A stretch of 64,000 nt of DNA from positions 3,224,001 to 3,288,000 of the forward strand of contig NZ_CP027860.1 in the NCBI RefSeq assembly GCF_003015185.1, given 5' to 3'. How positions within the stretch are numbered: position 1 is the stretch's first letter; each line of letters opens with the position of its first letter. The DNA is from Ahniella affigens (lineage in GTDB: Bacteria > Pseudomonadota > Gammaproteobacteria > Xanthomonadales > Ahniellaceae). The position numbers and the translations under genes are program-made. Shown piece after piece: positions 40,459 to 57,641 of the stretch. The notes beneath the pieces are model-generated. The model was not told the origin of the DNA. It was given only the letters and a program-made list of their open reading frames with translations, and ran no database searches.

Positions 40459-40523
40459 TACCCATCTCCTGTCGATCGATCACGAGCGGGCTGAACGCAA
40501 TGATGTCGCGCCCAACCAAGGAA

Positions 40524-40585
40524 GCCACTGAACAAGTTCAGTAGCGAAGCGGGTCTGAAAGTCCAGGATGGACTGATTCCGACCC
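40524..40585. repeat. Five-hairpin element, 62-bp short form (H1 + H5)
   Basis: H1 (40524-40545) and H5 (40551-40585) are joined by five bases; H2-H4 are missing. In H1 a T-A pair of the consensus is replaced by A-T on both arms, while the neighbouring pair has become C/A. It lies 36 bases after the phrB stop with H5 nearest the gene. Confidence 0.8.
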
Positions 40586-40621
40586 TGCCAAAACGATTAA
40601 TAGCCGCGCCCGGGCACCCGG

Positions 40622-42301: not shown

Positions 42302-45300
42302 ATGACACTCAGATTCCCAATGCAATGGCTGTTTGCCGGCAGTTTTCTGCTGGCCGGGGCCGTTTCGGCCCAAACCGCCAAGACCATCGCCACCAGTTCC
42401 ATCGATCAAACACTGAGCACTTCAGTTCAATTGAACGGCGACTACGGCCGTTCGATCGCCTTTGTCGGTGATGTCAACGGTGACGGCTTCGGCGATTTGC
42501 TGGTCGGCCAGCCCCTGTTTGACAACGGTGCCAGCGCCGACGCTGGCGCAGCATACCTCTACTCGGGCAATGCCACAGGCTTCTCGACCAGCCCACTCGT
42601 CAGCTTGCTGCCCGTACAGGCCGGTGCTCGCTTCGGCAGTGCGGTCACCGGAATTGGCGATGCCAATGGTGATGGCTACATGGACTTCGCGGTCGCCGCC
42701 GAATTTCAGGATGGCAGCAACACCGACGAAGGTGCGGTCTGGGTATTCTTTGGTGGCAGCACCGTTTCTCAGAATCAGGCCGGGCTCTTGTTCGGTGCCC
42801 AGGCTTCGGCCTACTTGGGCACGTCGCTCGCTGGCGTTGGCGACGTCAATGGAGACGGTTTCGCCGATCTGGCGGTCGGCGCACCCGGCTTCGACGGATC
42901 CGCCACCAATACGGGCGTCGTCCGCATTTTCTTTGGCGGCTCGGGCACGACTTTCAATGCCGTGGTCGATGTGACTTTGTCGGGGGCCGCCACGGACTAT
43001 CGTCTGGGTTCGAGTGTTGCCGGTGCCGGCGACGTCAATGCCGATGGCTTTGCCGATGTGCTGGCGGGCGCGGCGACCGCGTCGTCGCCCGAGACCAACG
43101 AAGGCCTCGGATTCTTGTACTTGGGCGGGTCGACGATGAACAACGTCGTCGATGTGACCTACCAGATCAACCAGGCCAGTGCCGATTTTGGTCGCAGTGT
43201 CAGCGGCGGTGGCGACTTGAATGGCGATGGCTACAGCGACATTCTGATCGGCGCACCGCTTTATGACGACGGTCAGACTGACGAAGGCGGCGCCTTTGTC
43301 TACTTTGGCGGTGCCACGCCCGACAATGTCTCGGACCTGACAATCACCTCGAACCAAGCCGCGGCGCAGTTGGGCTTTCGCGTCGCGAGTATTGGCGATG
43401 CCGACGGCGATAGTTATGCCGAATTCTCCGTTTCGGCGCCGTTGCTGGATGCTGGCGCCACGGTCGATTCGGGACGGGCCTGGATCTTCCGAGGCCGGCC
43501 CGGTGGCTTGAGTGCTGCGGCCGATGCGGCCTTCTCAATCAATCAAGGCGGCGAACAGATGGGGCGTGCTTTGGCGGGCGGCGACTTCAACGGCGACGGC
43601 TATTCAGATTTCTTTATCGGCGCGCCACTCAATACCGAAGGCGCTAGCACGGGCGCAGGCACTGCCTTTATCGTGCGCGGCAGCATGTTGACCTTTGACG
43701 CAACCTCCGACCTGACCATTGAAGGCGCGGCGCCCGGTGTTGGCTTTGGCACAACCACCGCGACTGGCGACATCAATGGTGATGGGTTCGTCGATCTCGT
43801 CGTCGGTAAGCCGAAAAAGAATGTCAGTAGCGCGGAGGATGGCTCGTTCAGCGCGTATCTCGGCAGCAACCTCGGTCTACAACTCGCAAGCCAAGTCACC
43901 GTTGATGCCACCGCCGCAGGCGGTAATCTGGGTTCGGCTGTGGCCACGTGCGACGTCAATGGCGACGGATTCGCCGATGTCATTGTCGGTGCGGAAAAGC
44001 AAGCCAATGGCCAGGCCAATGAGGGATTTGCCTACATCTACTATGGCGGTCAAGGCGCCTTCAACACGACCGCAGACAAGACATTCGAGATGAATGTTCT
44101 GAACGCCCAGTTCGGCCATAGCGTGGCCTGTGGCGGCGATGTCAATGGCGATGGATTCGGCGATGTGGTGATCGGCGCGCCGTTCGCCGAAAACGGCACT
44201 CCGAACGATGAGGGTTTGGTCTATGTCTTCTTAGGCAGTACCGACATGGATACCAACGCAGATGCCATTTTGGAGGTTAACCAAGGCTCGGCGTTTCTGG
44301 GTCAAAGCGTCGCCGGAATTGGTGACTACAATGGCGATGGCTTCGCTGACATTGCCGCTGGTTCGACGGGCTATGACATTGCCGGCTCCGCCAATGGCGG
44401 CGTCATCTGGATCTGGTATGGCGGGTCCACTTTCAACGCCACGAGCGATGGCTTTGTCGGCGGCACGCAGAATAACTCGCGAATGGGTTTCGCGGTCACG
44501 GGGCTTGGTGATGTCAACGGCGACGGCTTTGACGACTTCGCTGCGTCCGCGAATGAGCATGATCAACCGCAAGTCGACTCCGGTGCCACCTACATCTTTC
44601 TCGGCGCAGCCAGCCCCACGAATATCGCGAACGGCACCTTGTCGCCACAGCAGGCGACGGCGTTTGGCGGTCAGAGCGTTGGCAGTGCCGGCGATCTCAA
44701 TGGCGACGGCTTCGCTGATGTCATCGTCGGTGCGCACCGATGGGACAATGGCGCCAGCGCGGACACGGGCGCAGCTTTCGTCTACTTTGGCGGCGTGACC
44801 GCATTCGACACGACCGCTGATATCACGTTGACCAGCACCACCGCTGGCGACGCCATCGGGACAAGCGTGAGCAGCGGCGATTTCGATGGAGACGGCGATG
44901 TCGATCTGGTCGTCGGCGCGAGCGGCTTCACGAATGGCGACGCGGGCGAAGGCGCGGTGTTCATCTATCGCAACCGTGACATCGGCCGTTTGTCAGGGCC
45001 GCAGGCCTTCAGCGTCACCCCTCTCGCGCCAGTCGAGCAATGGGGTCGCTCCCGAGTCAGTGACGGCTTTTTTGTTGGCATGGAAGGCATCAGTCCGCGC
45101 GGTCGCGACAAGGGCAAGTTGGAGCTCGAAGCCTGCCCGCCGACCCGGCCGTTTGATGCACCGCAATGCACGCGTTTCCTGTCGCCAAGCTGGAGCGACG
45201 TCAACAACACGGCCAGCGTTGCCGGGCTCGCCGCGCAAGCCACCGGCCTCAATGGGGAAACGGTCTACCATTGGCGTGCGCGCGCCGTGTTCGCGCCGTT

Positions 45301-48505: not shown

Positions 48506-48533
48506 GGAGACTCTGAACGAGTTCAGAGTCTCC
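48506..48533. repeat. Lone H1-type hairpin between convergent genes
   Basis: Perfect 13-base arms (ggagactctgaac with its complement) and a GA centre. The inner ctctgaac/gttcagag core is that of H1 of the five-hairpin element, but the second pair is A-T where the full copies have C-G, changed on both arms. It lies between the penicillin acylase stop and the convergent secreted-protein gene and could act as a bidirectional transcription barrier, although no T run follows. Confidence 0.7.
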
Positions 48534-49489: not shown

Positions 49490-49522
49490 AAGCCTATCTT
49501 CAGTGATGGTGATGGTTCGGGA

Positions 49523-49656
49523 GCCTCTGAACAGGTTCAGAGACAACGCAGGCCACGGAAGGACTGCCCAGATACAGCGCTTAACCGCCAGATTCTTGGG
49601 CGCCGAGCCCGGACTCGGCGCGGGTCTGAACGGCCAAGACCGACGTGTTCAGACCC
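49523..49656. repeat. Five-hairpin element, diverged copy
   Basis: H1 is kept (49523-49544, one mismatch), H4 is a different sequence that still pairs (cgccgag with ctcggcg, 49601-49620), and the outer stem of H5 is kept (gggtctgaac at 49622 with gttcagaccc ending at 49656). H3 is recognisable only at its base (gcccaga near 49566 with tcttgggc), and H2 is eroded. Confidence 0.6.
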
Positions 49657-49746
49657 TCGGTCGTTGACGTTAGTCGTTTGGAACTACCCGAGCATCACAT
49701 GGCGTATCCCATGGCAGGCAGTCCGAAGCGCGTGACTGCCTAAGGA

Positions 49747-49892
49747 GCCTCTGAACAAGTTCAGAGGCGATTCGGGCCATGGATGGCCCGCCCAGAATCA
49801 AGCACGCAAGTGTTTGATTCTGGGGCACTGAGTCCGGACACGTGCCGGACTCAGTGCGGGTCTGAAAGTCCAGGATGGACTTATTCAGACCC
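49747..49892. repeat. Five-hairpin element, full 146-bp copy
   Basis: Five adjoining hairpins: H1 49747-49768 (gcctctgaac arms), H2 49774-49789 (gggcca arms, TGGA loop), H3 49792-49823 (14-base arms, GCAA loop, one G-T wobble), H4 49825-49857 (gcactgagtccgg arms, loop holding cacgtg), H5 49858-49892 (outer gggtctgaa and inner agtcca stems, GGA loop, two-base bulge TA). H5 is nearest to the regulator gene stop at 50021. Confidence 0.9.
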
Positions 49893-50020
49893 TCCCTAGC
49901 CGCGAAAAGCATCCAAAGCAGGCCACAAGGTCTTTCAGTCAACTCGCGAACTGCTTTGAAGCCATCTTTCGCGCCACCACTGTGGCAAGCACCGAACAAC
50001 AGGATCCTGACCACCAAGGA

Positions 50021-50755: not shown

Positions 50756-53700
50756 CTATTCAAAGCTATCTGAGAATAGTGTGTTTGACTGGGTGCGCAG
50801 ATCACCCAAGCCCGCGCGAGCGCGCATGCGTTTCCAGGGACCGAGTTGGGCGGGCTCCGTCGGTGCCGTGATGCCTGCTGCGGTGATGCCCATCGGCGCA
50901 TAGATCATCCGCGCACGCCAGTGATAGGGCGTGTCTGCGTTGAGTGCATCCGGCATCACGAGTACCAGAGCCCCAGCACTAGAGCTCGTCAGATCGGTCC
51001 ACTCGGGCGTCGTCGTGGTCAAACAACTGTTGTTGCCAAACGCCGTACCATTGGGACACAGCTCGACGCGCATTTTGACGCGCTGGCGGCCAATCGGTGA
51101 CTGCGCCAATGCTGCGATCAGCGTCCCGCTCGGGGAGGTCGTGTCGCCTTCGAAGTCGAATGGTGCCACCGCACTTCGGAACTGTTGCGGGCTGCCGTCC
51201 CGGCCAGCCCCATTGGGAATGGCAACATGGATGGCGCCAGACGCGGACGCCGTCGACACGGCACCGACCACCACTTCGGCAAAGCCATCGCCATTGAGGT
51301 CGGCCAGGGCTCCGGTCTGCCCGAAGCGGGTGTCCGGATCAGCGGACAGGACGGTCTCTGAATTGGTCAGGAGGCCGGTGGCACTGCCGCGATACCAACG
51401 CGCTGAATCGCTCGAACCGACCGGCGAACCGACCAACACATCGGCGAAGCCGTCGGCGTCGATGTCGCCACCGCCGGCCACAAAGAAGCCGTACTCCAAG
51501 CTAGTGTTCCCAAAGATGGTCTGAACGTCACCCGGCCCATCCATCAATCCAGAGCTTGAACCGCGATAGAGGCGGATGGCTCCCGATTGACTGCCGTTCA
51601 CCTCATTGGGGCAACCTACGACCAAGTCAGAGTAGCCATCGCCATTGATGTCGCCGGCAGAGGCCAGACCAACCGAGCAGCGTGCGCCATTTATGGTCGA
51701 CGGCGCAATCTGCTTATCGCTGGTCGTGTCAAAGTTCTCCCCGCCGTGGTAGATCATGACGCGCCCTCGACCCGTGCTTGGGTCGTCGCGCATGCCCACC
51801 GCAAGATCTGCAAATCCATCGCCATTGACATCGCCAGCGCCAGCGATGCGCCAGCCGAACAGCCCCGCCGTCGTGTTCATGAGAATCTGCCGATCGGCGG
51901 TACCAGACACGCCTGATGCCTTGCCGAACCAGATGAATGCCGCGCCACTCTCGGTGACGCCGGCGTTGAGATCATAGTTGAGTGCACCGACACCTAAGTC
52001 GACAATCCCGTCGCCGTTCAGGTCACCGACATTCGCAACCGCCAACCCAAACCCGGCACCGATCTGCGCAACGCTGACCACATGATCAGCGGTGGTGTTG
52101 AACGCACCGGTACCGCCATTGAAGATGCGCACTTGTCCGCCACTGCCAACCATGTTCGGTGCGCCAACTGCGACATCGCCATAACCATCGCCATTGAAGT
52201 CACCCACGGCGACCGAGGCACCAAACGCCTCGCCGACACCACTGTTGCTCACGACACCATCAGCAGTGGTATTGAAACCGCCGGCCGCGCCGTAATAGAG
52301 ATCGATTCGGCCGCTATCAGCCGTTGCTCCGTTCAGATCATAACCGGGACTGCCCACGGCCAAGTCGGCGAGCCCATCGCCATTGATGTCGCCAGTCGCC
52401 ATGTTGTGACCGAACTGCCCATTGGCTTGAGGTCCGTTGATCGAGCTGGTCAAGTTGGGCGACAGACGACGATCGGACTGCACCATGTAGAGCGCACCCT
52501 GGCGAGCACGTCCACCTACCGTTTCTTCCGGCGCACCGACAAACAGCTCAGGAAAACCATTGCCGTTGAAGTCGACAAAAGCCAACGAGCTGCCAAGTCT
52601 GCCGCCTGTCGTGGTGCTGGATAGACCGCGAATTTGATACCTGTCCGTGGTCAAACCTGTGCCAGAACCACGCACCACATGCACTGTGCCGAACTCGTTG
52701 ATTGCATAGTCCGTGGCATTCGGCGAACCAATCGCCAGATCGGCGTAGCCATCACCGTTGCTGTCACCGATGGCGAGCGACGCTCCAAACAGGCTACCTG
52801 CGACATCGGACTGGAGGATCGTATCGACCACCGCATTGGCAGTGGCCGTGGTCGCGCCATGAAACACAAATACAGCGCCTTCGTTGGTTTGCCCATTGTC
52901 GTACAAGGGTGCGCCGATGCTGACGTCTGAGAAACCATCGCCGTTTACATCGCCCAAACCAGCAAACGCTCGACCCAGGTTGAGATCGGCGACATTGCCT
53001 TCGAACGTCAGATCAGCCGTGGTATCGAAACTGCCTGCACCGCCGTAGTAGAGCAAGGCCGCGCCTTCAAGACTCTGACCCGCCGTGAATCTCGGTACGC
53101 CCACCACAAAATCAGACCGACCATCGCCATTGAAATCGCCACCGCCGGAAATCATTGATCCGTATTGGCTGTCAGGCGCAGTCGGAGACATCGTGGCATC
53201 GGCCGTCGTGTCGAACGTTGTACCGCTGCCGCCAAAATAGACTCGAACCTGGCCGGCATCCACGCGCGCCGCGCCATCATCATGCAGCGGCGCGCCGACA
53301 GCGAGGTCAGCGTAGCCATCGCCGTTAACATCCCCGATACCGGCCACCGCCATGCCGAACTGACTTCCCGCTTGACCGGCACCAGTCAACTGCGCCGCGA
53401 GTGTCCAAGGCGTCGGCACAACGGATGATTTTCCGAAGTAGACATATGCACGACCAACGTCCTGAGTCGCCCCGTTGTCCCAGAGCGGCGCACCCACGAT
53501 GAAGTCGTCAAAACCATCGCCGTTCAAGTCCCCCGCACCCGACACACTGGTACCAAATCGTTCGCTGGCCGAGGTCCCGTATTCAACGAAGATCGGACCT
53601 GGACTATTCGAGGTACCAGTACCGAAATACACCGCCACGGCGCCGCGATTGACTGCGGTGCCCCCGGCACTCTCCCCTGGCAGGCCCAGCGCAAAATCGA

Positions 53701-53902
53701 GGAAACCATCACCGTTGACATCGCCCAGCGGCGTCATGGAATAGCCGTGCTCCGCATTCGCCAGCGGCAAAGTTGTCTGACGCGAATCGGCAATGCCAGT
53801 CGCATAGCTGGCATGCGTATCCCATGACATCCCGACGGTCAGCACACCCGTGATCAGGGCCGATGAGAGAAGTAGTAAACGACTAGTCTGAGTGTTGTGC
53901 AC
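50756..53902 (-). CDS. Giant secreted FG-GAP repeat protein, 14 repeats, DSFE tail
   Basis: Predicted 1048 residues. A signal peptide (LLLLSSALITGVLTVG, cut near THA) is followed by 14 FG-GAP repeats such as GDLNGDGFDDFIVGAP and GDVNGDGYADLAVGAP; repeat 7 (VDFNGNGFPELFVGAP) and repeat 13 (GDIDADGFADVLVGSP) have altered calcium loops. The C-terminal domain shares YHWRAR, GPWKRM and GLGD with the 42-45 kb paralogue and ends NTLFSDSFE. It lies upstream of the pseudo-receiver gene on the same strand. Likely extracellular; function unknown. Confidence 0.85.
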   Translation of the reverse strand: MHNTQTSRLLLLSSALITGVLTVGMSWDTHASYATGIADSRQTTLPLANAEHGYSMTPLGDVNGDGFLDFALGLPGESAGGTAVNRGAVAVYFGTGTSNSPGPIFVEYGTSASERFGTSVSGAGDLNGDGFDDFIVGAPLWDNGATQDVGRAYVYFGKSSVVPTPWTLAAQLTGAGQAGSQFGMAVAGIGDVNGDGYADLAVGAPLHDDGAARVDAGQVRVYFGGSGTTFDTTADATMSPTAPDSQYGSMISGGGDFNGDGRSDFVVGVPRFTAGQSLEGAALLYYGGAGSFDTTADLTFEGNVADLNLGRAFAGLGDVNGDGFSDVSIGAPLYDNGQTNEGAVFVFHGATTATANAVVDTILQSDVAGSLFGASLAIGDSNGDGYADLAIGSPNATDYAINEFGTVHVVRGSGTGLTTDRYQIRGLSSTTTGGRLGSSLAFVDFNGNGFPELFVGAPEETVGGRARQGALYMVQSDRRLSPNLTSSINGPQANGQFGHNMATGDINGDGLADLAVGSPGYDLNGATADSGRIDLYYGAAGGFNTTADGVVSNSGVGEAFGASVAVGDFNGDGYGDVAVGAPNMVGSGGQVRIFNGGTGAFNTTADHVVSVAQIGAGFGLAVANVGDLNGDGIVDLGVGALNYDLNAGVTESGAAFIWFGKASGVSGTADRQILMNTTAGLFGWRIAGAGDVNGDGFADLAVGMRDDPSTGRGRVMIYHGGENFDTTSDKQIAPSTINGARCSVGLASAGDINGDGYSDLVVGCPNEVNGSQSGAIRLYRGSSSGLMDGPGDVQTIFGNTSLEYGFFVAGGGDIDADGFADVLVGSPVGSSDSARWYRGSATGLLTNSETVLSADPDTRFGQTGALADLNGDGFAEVVVGAVSTASASGAIHVAIPNGAGRDGSPQQFRSAVAPFDFEGDTTSPSGTLIAALAQSPIGRQRVKMRVELCPNGTAFGNNSCLTTTTPEWTDLTSSSAGALVLVMPDALNADTPYHWRARMIYAPMGITAAGITAPTEPAQLGPWKRMRARAGLGDLRTQSNTLFSDSFE

Positions 53903-54321
53903 CGCTTTGGCCCTCTAGCACCCGGCTGGGCGCGTATAGGACCGTATTGTTCAAGAGCTTCTTCGTCACCGAATCACAGACACCAAGTCACAGCGGGGTC
54001 ACATGCACGTGTGATGAGCAACTCGTGTCATGTCCCGTAAACAACTCGAATAGATGTCTCGACTTTCAAGTTATCTGCAGGACACAACGCGGCGTCATCA
54101 CGTATTCACGGTTTCACATCGCGCCCGGCAGCGGTTGATCGCAAGCCTGCCAAGGAACCTCTGAACAAGTTCAGAGGCACTGCGGGCCAGGGATGGCCCG
54201 CCCAGAATCGAGCACGGAAGTGCTTGATTCTGGAGCACTGAGTCCGGACATGTGCCGGACTCAATGCGGGTCTGAAAGTCCAGGATGGACTGATTCAAAC
54301 CCTTCCCAGGCGCGTAGAACC
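53903..54321. other. Intergenic region with five-hairpin element
   Basis: This 419-bp gap lies between the amylase stop and the FG-GAP start, both on the minus strand. The right part holds the 146-bp element. The left 250 bases should hold the FG-GAP promoter, but I see no strong promoter pair. Confidence 0.5.
54157..54302. repeat. Five-hairpin element, full 146-bp copy
   Basis: Same five hairpins and same length as the 49.7-kb copy. Differences: H2 loop GGGA; H3 loop GGAA and a wobble at another pair; H4 right arm ccggactcaatgc, leaving one C/A mismatch; H5 bulge GA and right arm ttcaaaccc. H5 ends 19 bases from the amylase stop codon. Confidence 0.9.
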
Positions 54322-57418: not shown

Positions 57419-57421
57419 GGA

Positions 57422-57567
57422 GGGTCTGAAGAAGTCCATCCTGGACTTTCAGACCCGCAATGAGTCCGGCACGTGTCCGGACTCATTGCCCCAGAACCAA
57501 GCACTTGCGTGCTTGATTCTGGGCGGGCCATCCATGGCCCGCATCGCCTCTGAACTTGTTCAGAGCC
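57422..57567. repeat. Five-hairpin element, full 146-bp copy, inverted
   Basis: Order on the plus strand is H5, H4, H3, H2, H1, starting four bases after the DUF6445 gene stop. H4 arms are gcaatgagtccgg and its full complement: the C-G pair of the 49.7-kb copy has become A-T on both arms. H5 keeps its stems with bulge GA on this strand. H1 is slightly frayed at its outer end. Confidence 0.9.
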
Positions 57568-57641
57568 TCCCTAACGCGATCAGGCGGCCATTATCCGCGC
57601 AGATATCTCCAAACGTTCTGTGATCGATCGTAAACGGGCCC

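Follow-up and report, generated by a model that had tools for sequence, protein, structure and literature searches.

Five-hairpin miniature transposable elements in Ahniella affigens and its relatives: a conserved fold with two GGA loops and CsrA/RsmA as candidate ligand

The repeat described here, present in three full copies in the window (the whole stretch of 64,000 nucleotides of the Ahniella affigens genome that was analysed) and in many more beyond it, is almost certainly a miniature inverted-repeat transposable element (MITE), 152 bp long, gene-less and with the ends GGAG...CTCC. Its body consists of five consecutive hairpins, and their fold is conserved in the lineage of spreading copies. 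In the explanation that we favour as a whole, and to which we assign a probability of about 0.5, the MITE is moved by an IS5-family transposase and carries a selected RNA fold that would bind CsrA/RsmA. Judged from sequence comparison, the element probably belongs to a widespread MITE family with a structured, CsrA/RsmA-binding RNA.

A preliminary description of the window had given the element a length of 146 bp, which has to be corrected, the true unit at the first copy (49744-49895) being 152 bp long, with GGA added on the 5' side and TCC on the 3' side. It had also listed three full copies with the same hairpins in the same order; all three were found, but the copy at 57.4 kb lies on the minus strand and its hairpin order matches only when read from there. 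The diverged copy, the two short derivatives and the lone H1-type hairpin of the same description are all real. The features in the window are the following.

49744-49895, plus strand: full MITE copy, GGAG...CTCC, 152 bp, flanked by CTAA (49740-49743) and CTAG (49896-49899)
49747-49768, plus strand: H1, terminal hairpin on the left inverted repeat
49773-49790, plus strand: H2, loop AUGGAU, with GGA at 49781-49783
49792-49823, plus strand: H3, loop GCAA
49825-49857, plus strand: H4
49858-49892, plus strand: H5, terminal hairpin on the right inverted repeat, with loop GGA at 49873-49875
54154-54305, plus strand: second full copy
57419-57570, minus strand: third full copy, with TTAG on either side
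49520-49658, plus strand: diverged, shorter copy, 70% identity
62589-62656, minus strand: 68-bp derivative with H1 and H5 only, CTAA on either side
40520-40588, plus strand: second short derivative with H1 and H5 only, ends read from the sequence
48506-48530, plus strand: lone H1-type hairpin

The element extends well beyond the window, with 76 full copies found by BLAST in those stretches of the genome that were examined, and its terminal pattern GGAGNNTCTGAANAAGTNCA, with two mismatches allowed, has 314 matches in the genome of 6,120,935 bases and 0 when reversed as a control. Size variants of 68, 151, 175 and 176 bp each lie between exact flanking duplications, and so do tandem arrays of 279, 303, 406 (two) and 533 bp, in which the units have a 127-bp period and the inner H1 copies are missing. 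Tandem H2-H5 arrays of this period, with up to five units, were observed in loci L052 (2660-3319; five units with ten GGA sites) and L018 (1222-1754), and more of them in L019, L020, L056, L066, L067 and L077, several with exact 4-bp flanking repeats. In copies of 175-176 bp (L053 2904-3079, L065 2998-3172, L104 2968-3143) an extra GC-rich hairpin is nested in the loop of H4 and looks like another palindromic repeat inserted there.

The transposable nature of the repeat had been overlooked in the preliminary description; it is seen in the 4-bp target duplications and in the ends held in common with a 13-copy IS5-family element. Identical 4-bp flanks surround 46 of 75 copies (one of the 76 was dropped for lack of flank) as against 1 of 300 offset controls, the commonest duplications being CTAG (16), CTAA (11) and TTAG (8). 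There is also an unoccupied site: when the two flanks of the copy at C1:5183123 are put together, keeping a single duplication, they match part of another repeat family in L067 at 87% over positions 2-116 of 116. The copy round 1224-1375 of L004 (C1:5183 kb) lies within a member of another family of palindromic repeats; several more members were seen, including one at about 36.0 kb of the window.

As to the partner, the genome contains 13 equally scoring DDE_Tnp_1 matches and two weaker ones. All 13 lie within 1223-bp elements that have the MITE's ends and exact 4-bp duplications, and one of the weaker matches lies inside a 1213-bp copy; the transposase of the 1223-bp element belongs to the IS5 family (NF033581, 325.7 bits, cut-off 140). 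The equal transposase scores and exact duplications of the thirteen 1223-bp copies (L024-L036) suggest recent activity. The right end reads GGAGGGTCTGAATAAGTCCA in the MITE and GGAGGGTCTGAACAAGTCC in the IS, and exact 11-mers common to the window copy of the MITE and the one IS copy compared are confined to the ends. Membership in the IS5-family MITEs, which rests on this anatomy, is close to certain, and transposition of the MITE by the IS5-type transposase in trans is probable. The transposase of the 1223-bp IS would recognise GGAGNNTCTGAAYAAGT at both MITE termini and would move the MITE into CTAG/CTAA/TTAG-like intergenic sites, duplicating 4 bp. Ten other carrier genomes were checked for a matching IS; seven have PF01609 genes, and ends could be matched to those of the genome's own MITE only in G236 (L201), where the PF01609 element and the MITE have the common end GGAAGCTCTGATTTA. 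The PF01609 genes of G282 have the ends GGATGCTCTGAT, and one gene of G163 has ends with CTGTTGAAAAAC.

The presence of three PF01797 matches in the genome, together with the GGAG beside a hairpin, which we take to resemble REP tags, might point to a REPIN or BIME mobilised by a RAYT (Y1) transposase. This is extremely improbable, as an IS5-family element has the MITE's ends and duplication length, while different repeats flank two of the three Y1 genes and none was seen beside the third. A REP/RAYT origin was therefore rejected: no association with a RAYT was found, and ends, duplications and transposase are all IS5-type. Other repeats were observed along the way. In L002 (680-2067; C1:982 kb) another repeat, with GTGGGAG-tagged hairpins, forms a tandem array after a Y1 transposase gene, presumably a RAYT, and in L001 (1405-2560; C1:3203 kb) several hairpins in a row, of the types CAGGGTTTCACCCTGGG and GCCCCTTCGGGGC, come before a Y1 gene that we take to be IS200-like. 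The window itself holds, on opposite strands at 42446-44929 and 51257-53725, many coding repeats of the GD(V/L/F)NGDG type (repeat families D1-D7), presumably FG-GAP-like units.

Compared with 200 dinucleotide shuffles, the first copy (49747-49892) folds with a z of –13.5 on the plus strand and –13.3 on the minus strand, about equally well on both, and the other two with –8.6 (54157-54302) and –12.4 (57422-57567). The earlier observation that base pairs had altered on both arms is borne out and extended by three alignments. In A2, which comprises 25 cores and was aligned without the model, 71 cells have changed on both sides versus 19.4 after shuffling. Alignments A3 and A4 were made to the model, and are thus biased towards it, and their counts are not independent, since genomes and places have common ancestry: A3 (62 places, built from 58 selected source loci, some sharing a genome) has 285 both-side-changed cells versus 68.1, with 30 of 34 pairs altered on both sides and a covariation score of 0.433 versus 0.155 for shuffled and at most 0.084 for slid versions, and A4 (19 places in genomes outside the order) has 163 such cells versus 47.5 and a score of 0.684 versus 0.201. 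The H3 loop had been read as a GNRA tetraloop, which applies to many relatives, but others have GCAT, GTCA or GGCA.

Substitutions were also counted in 70 own copies with 88% identity or more, dropping six strongly diverged or inserted ones of the 76 and setting one gap event aside. Changes found in at least three copies amount to 0.21 per paired site versus 0.50 per unpaired site and keep the pair in 18 of 27 cases, and single-copy changes amount to 0.63 per paired and 0.54 per unpaired site and keep it in 29 of 78 (Fisher p = 0.013, with a double change entered as two events, one per side, and two-copy changes in neither class; of the 12 two-copy changes at paired sites, 5 leave the pair intact and 7 break it). 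Shared changes spare the stems and single-copy ones do not, so the stems have been kept in the spreading lineage and not after insertion. The five-hairpin fold would be the cargo of the MITE, maintained by selection in the spreading lineage, and we consider it rather likely that this selection acts at the RNA level.

That conservation is seen before and not after insertion would also suit a structure needed as DNA, in which cruciforms or single-stranded hairpins bind a DNA protein or aid transposition, or quasi-palindromes are kept perfect by template switching between the arms; Watson-Crick pairs do dominate (1813 of 2091 cells), and the terminal repeats form hairpins themselves. We hold such a role to be quite unlikely. 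Correction of one arm by the other predicts neither conserved loops nor G-U over A-C, and the loop regions of H2 and H4 are better conserved than the outer stems. Moreover, the IS has the same ends and duplications, only the ends being common, and lacks the internal hairpins, which are therefore unnecessary for its movement; IS5-type DDE transposases work on double-stranded ends, which again argues against a DNA-level role.

Selection at the RNA level, which we prefer, raises the question of the strand. The active strand had been left open; the GGA loops and, to a weak extent, the prevalence of G-U over A-C now favour the H1-to-H5 strand without settling it. On this strand G-U and A-C cells stand at 85:39 in A3 and 21:5 in A4. 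Counts that leave out the weak row L223:1331-1411, which is included in the A4 covariation and loop counts, give 71:30 (A3) and 18:5 (A4) once per genome, pair and type, and an excess of G-U in 18 pairs versus 7 by pair (p = 0.043). Per genome, G-U is in excess in 34, fewer in 4 and equal in 4. Without the three strongest pairs, all of them in H3, the ratio is 58:44, and in the own copies it is 20:13 among single-copy changes (p = 0.30) and 7:2 among shared ones (p = 0.18). The G-U excess points to the GGA strand with moderate strength.

Using a simple gene finder of our own, 69 of 75 own copies were placed (one of the 76 was dropped for lack of flank, and six lie at stretch ends), and none is within a gene; the genes that point into the element number 38 upstream, at the H1 end, and 43 downstream, at the H5 end, so that there is no orientation bias, and adjoining gene 3' ends outnumber 5' ends by 81:57. 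The picture in other genomes comes from 39 loci, a single metagenome-assembled Lysobacterales genome supplying 29; after eight were dropped, the 31 placed include none within a gene, with 22 genes running into H1, 17 into H5, and 39 3' ends versus 23 5' ends (own and other loci together, p = 0.0057). A simple consensus scan round the first copy saw no promoter-like or terminator-like site, so the RNA, if it matters, is probably made by read-through; in that case about half of the own copies are probably read in the GGA sense. Read-through from neighbouring genes in the H1-to-H5 sense would yield an RNA that presents the loops of H2 (CANGGAUG) and H5 (CAGGA).

Hairpins in such places might act as RNA without CsrA, on either strand, through stability, processing or anti-read-through in the way of REP, ERIC or Correia-like repeats, making insertions tolerable. 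The intergenic position, the preference for gene 3' ends, the lack of orientation bias and the similar folding of both strands are all consistent with this reading, and ERIC and Correia elements are reported, in the accessible text of two papers, to act via RNase E and RNase III (PMC10969869, PMC2229807). We nevertheless regard it as somewhat unlikely, as it does not account for the retention of GGA in these two loops when the stems change, nor for the one-strand G-U excess, as far as that excess holds.

The GGA loops speak for our preferred reading, that of an RNA bound by CsrA/RsmA, which the preliminary description had hinted at for H2 and H5; the hint is strengthened by the conservation of GGA far outside this genome. 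The H2 loop CANGGANG is found at 57 of 62 places in A3 and 15 of 19 in A4. Among hairpins picked by a script, some of them perhaps wrongly, the H5 loop has GGA at 49 of 62 places despite unrelated stems and the complement TCC at 1 of 62, and H1, which is also terminal, has GGA at 3 of 59; outside the order, GGA was read by eye from the output in the H5 loop at 15 of 19 places, and the places with an H5 devoid of GGA number 13 of 62 in A3 and 4 of 19 in A4. Of the 70 own copies, one has a change at any of the six GGA sites in H2 and H5, and the other unpaired sites are changed in a mean of 6.8 copies each, a constancy with P = 0.00035 when six unpaired sites are drawn and 0.0075 when they are drawn from all sites; the base preceding GGA in H2 varied (9 copies).

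The genome encodes CsrA, with three PF02599 matches, the best of which passes PRK01712 and TIGR00202. The repeats of CsrB, CAGGA(U/A/C)G, are described in the available text as sitting in hairpin loops, and the SELEX consensus of CsrA as RUACARGGAUGU, mostly in six-base loops closed by AC-GU (PMC7652899). According to the same text, most selected hairpins have at most 4 contiguous pairs and a very stable structure may hinder CsrA (PMC7652899); the stems of the element are longer than in most SELEX ligands. By motif, strand and position, CsrA/RsmA is the best candidate ligand, and we put the chance that it is the ligand a little under even. CsrA/RsmA would then bind the H2 and H5 loops, bound copies might form a dispersed mobile sponge or local mRNA-stability modules, and the benefit of binding to the element could lie in the sponge, in mRNA stability or in less harm to the host.

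A model search of relatives, as had been envisaged, detected the core in many genomes. The model, R1, is restricted to H2-H4, since H1 and H5 are too dissimilar to be aligned into a covariance model of all five hairpins. Taking as a match an E-value of up to 0.001 (E-values being rough) and with at most 14 or 15 candidates scored per genome, and with the own genome included in each sample, R1 matched 67 of 299 genomes and 33 of 85 genera in the order sample, 16 of 274 genomes in the class sample and 37 of 299 in the phylum sample; 34 of the last lie outside the class, with weaker matches, the best of about 58 bits. DNA search alone reached 11 of 61 genomes, own included. The carriers include Arenimonas fontis and Tahibacter soli, and further ones are metagenome-assembled genomes labelled Lysobacterales, Xanthomonadales, Gammaproteobacteria or Proteobacteria.

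Most of the loci inspected (17 of 18 from the class search; 6 of 9 from the phylum search, all but L236, L240 and L242) have five hairpins in one order. Judged by eye, L225, L226, L230, L233 and L241 have identical 4-bp flanks, the remaining inspected loci agreeing in three of four positions or in none, and the H5 loop has GGA in four of the five inspected loci outside the class (L238, L239, L241, L243, L244). The ends vary, from GGAG..TCTGAACAAG in Ahniella affigens to GGAAGCTCTGATCAA, CAGGCTGTTGAAAAAC and GAGGTTGTGA in other genomes; the differing ends around one core indicate that the core persists while the ends change. Viral contigs gave 0 exact matches to the core pattern, and a blastn search of plasmids with the own element and with one distant relative gave none. 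Rfam returned no match at gathering score in the 64-kb window and, over 13 loci, nothing but a tRNA next to one of the elements. In a literature search mostly without subscription papers, no published description of the five-hairpin family was found and six core strings occurred in no paper.

Like IS5-family MITEs, the element shares its ends with an IS5-family element, makes 4-bp target duplications, contains no gene and is present in many intergenic copies; unlike them, it has a five-hairpin core with covarying stems, two conserved GGA loops and different ends across a phylum. It is already known that MITEs can have strongly folding transcripts, and ERIC, Correia (NEMIS) and QMITE2 are likewise described as small MITEs of this kind, with no five-hairpin core bearing GGA loops in the accessible text on them (PMC10969869, PMC2229807, PMC5896051). 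QMITE2 further differs, according to the part of its description that is available, in having 7-11-nt direct repeats and a GTAG REP, and the same source says that most bacterial MITEs end in TA (PMC5896051).

The sponge RNAs CsrB and RsmX/Y/Z resemble the element in their several GGA-loop hairpins, with an H5 loop motif that equals the CsrB repeat CAGGA(U/A/C)G, and the five-unit tandem array with its ten GGA sites is a further likeness. In contrast to these RNAs, the element is mobile and multicopy, with two GGA loops per unit and long stems, no promoter or terminator of its own at the copy scanned and no Rfam match at threshold; none of the Csr/Rsm models of Rfam matched, RsmW scoring 16.6 bits against a threshold of 52. 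Rfam RF01740, the gyrA RNA, consists of two adjacent hairpins of similar geometry, and two relatives score 37.1 bits (L044) and 23.5 bits (L042). The 37.1 bits fall on H4-H5 of the relative at L044 1555-1627, possibly a chance likeness of two adjacent hairpins. Identity with the gyrA RNA, listed for Pseudomonas in the available text (PMC2864571), was rejected, the scores being under the threshold of 45 and the own copies searched giving no match.

We propose, tentatively and at well under even odds, that the elements form a phylum-wide transposable family with a mobile CsrA/RsmA sponge, in which a fixed five-hairpin RNA bearing a pair of CsrB-like loops would have outlived several changes of ends, and hence of transposase. 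Known bacterial MITE families are mostly confined to one species or genus, and the five-hairpin family contrasts with them in that the internal fold persists and the ends change; it would stand as a conserved, structured family with no Rfam 15 entry matching it at threshold. If the proposal is true, the genome of Ahniella affigens has well over a hundred CsrA/RsmA sites, among them the ten GGA loops of one tandem array, and a selfish element would be tapping a global post-transcriptional regulator. Should CsrA bind, transposons would rewire this global regulator, and the copy number of the element would be a direct, testable dosage of its binding sites.
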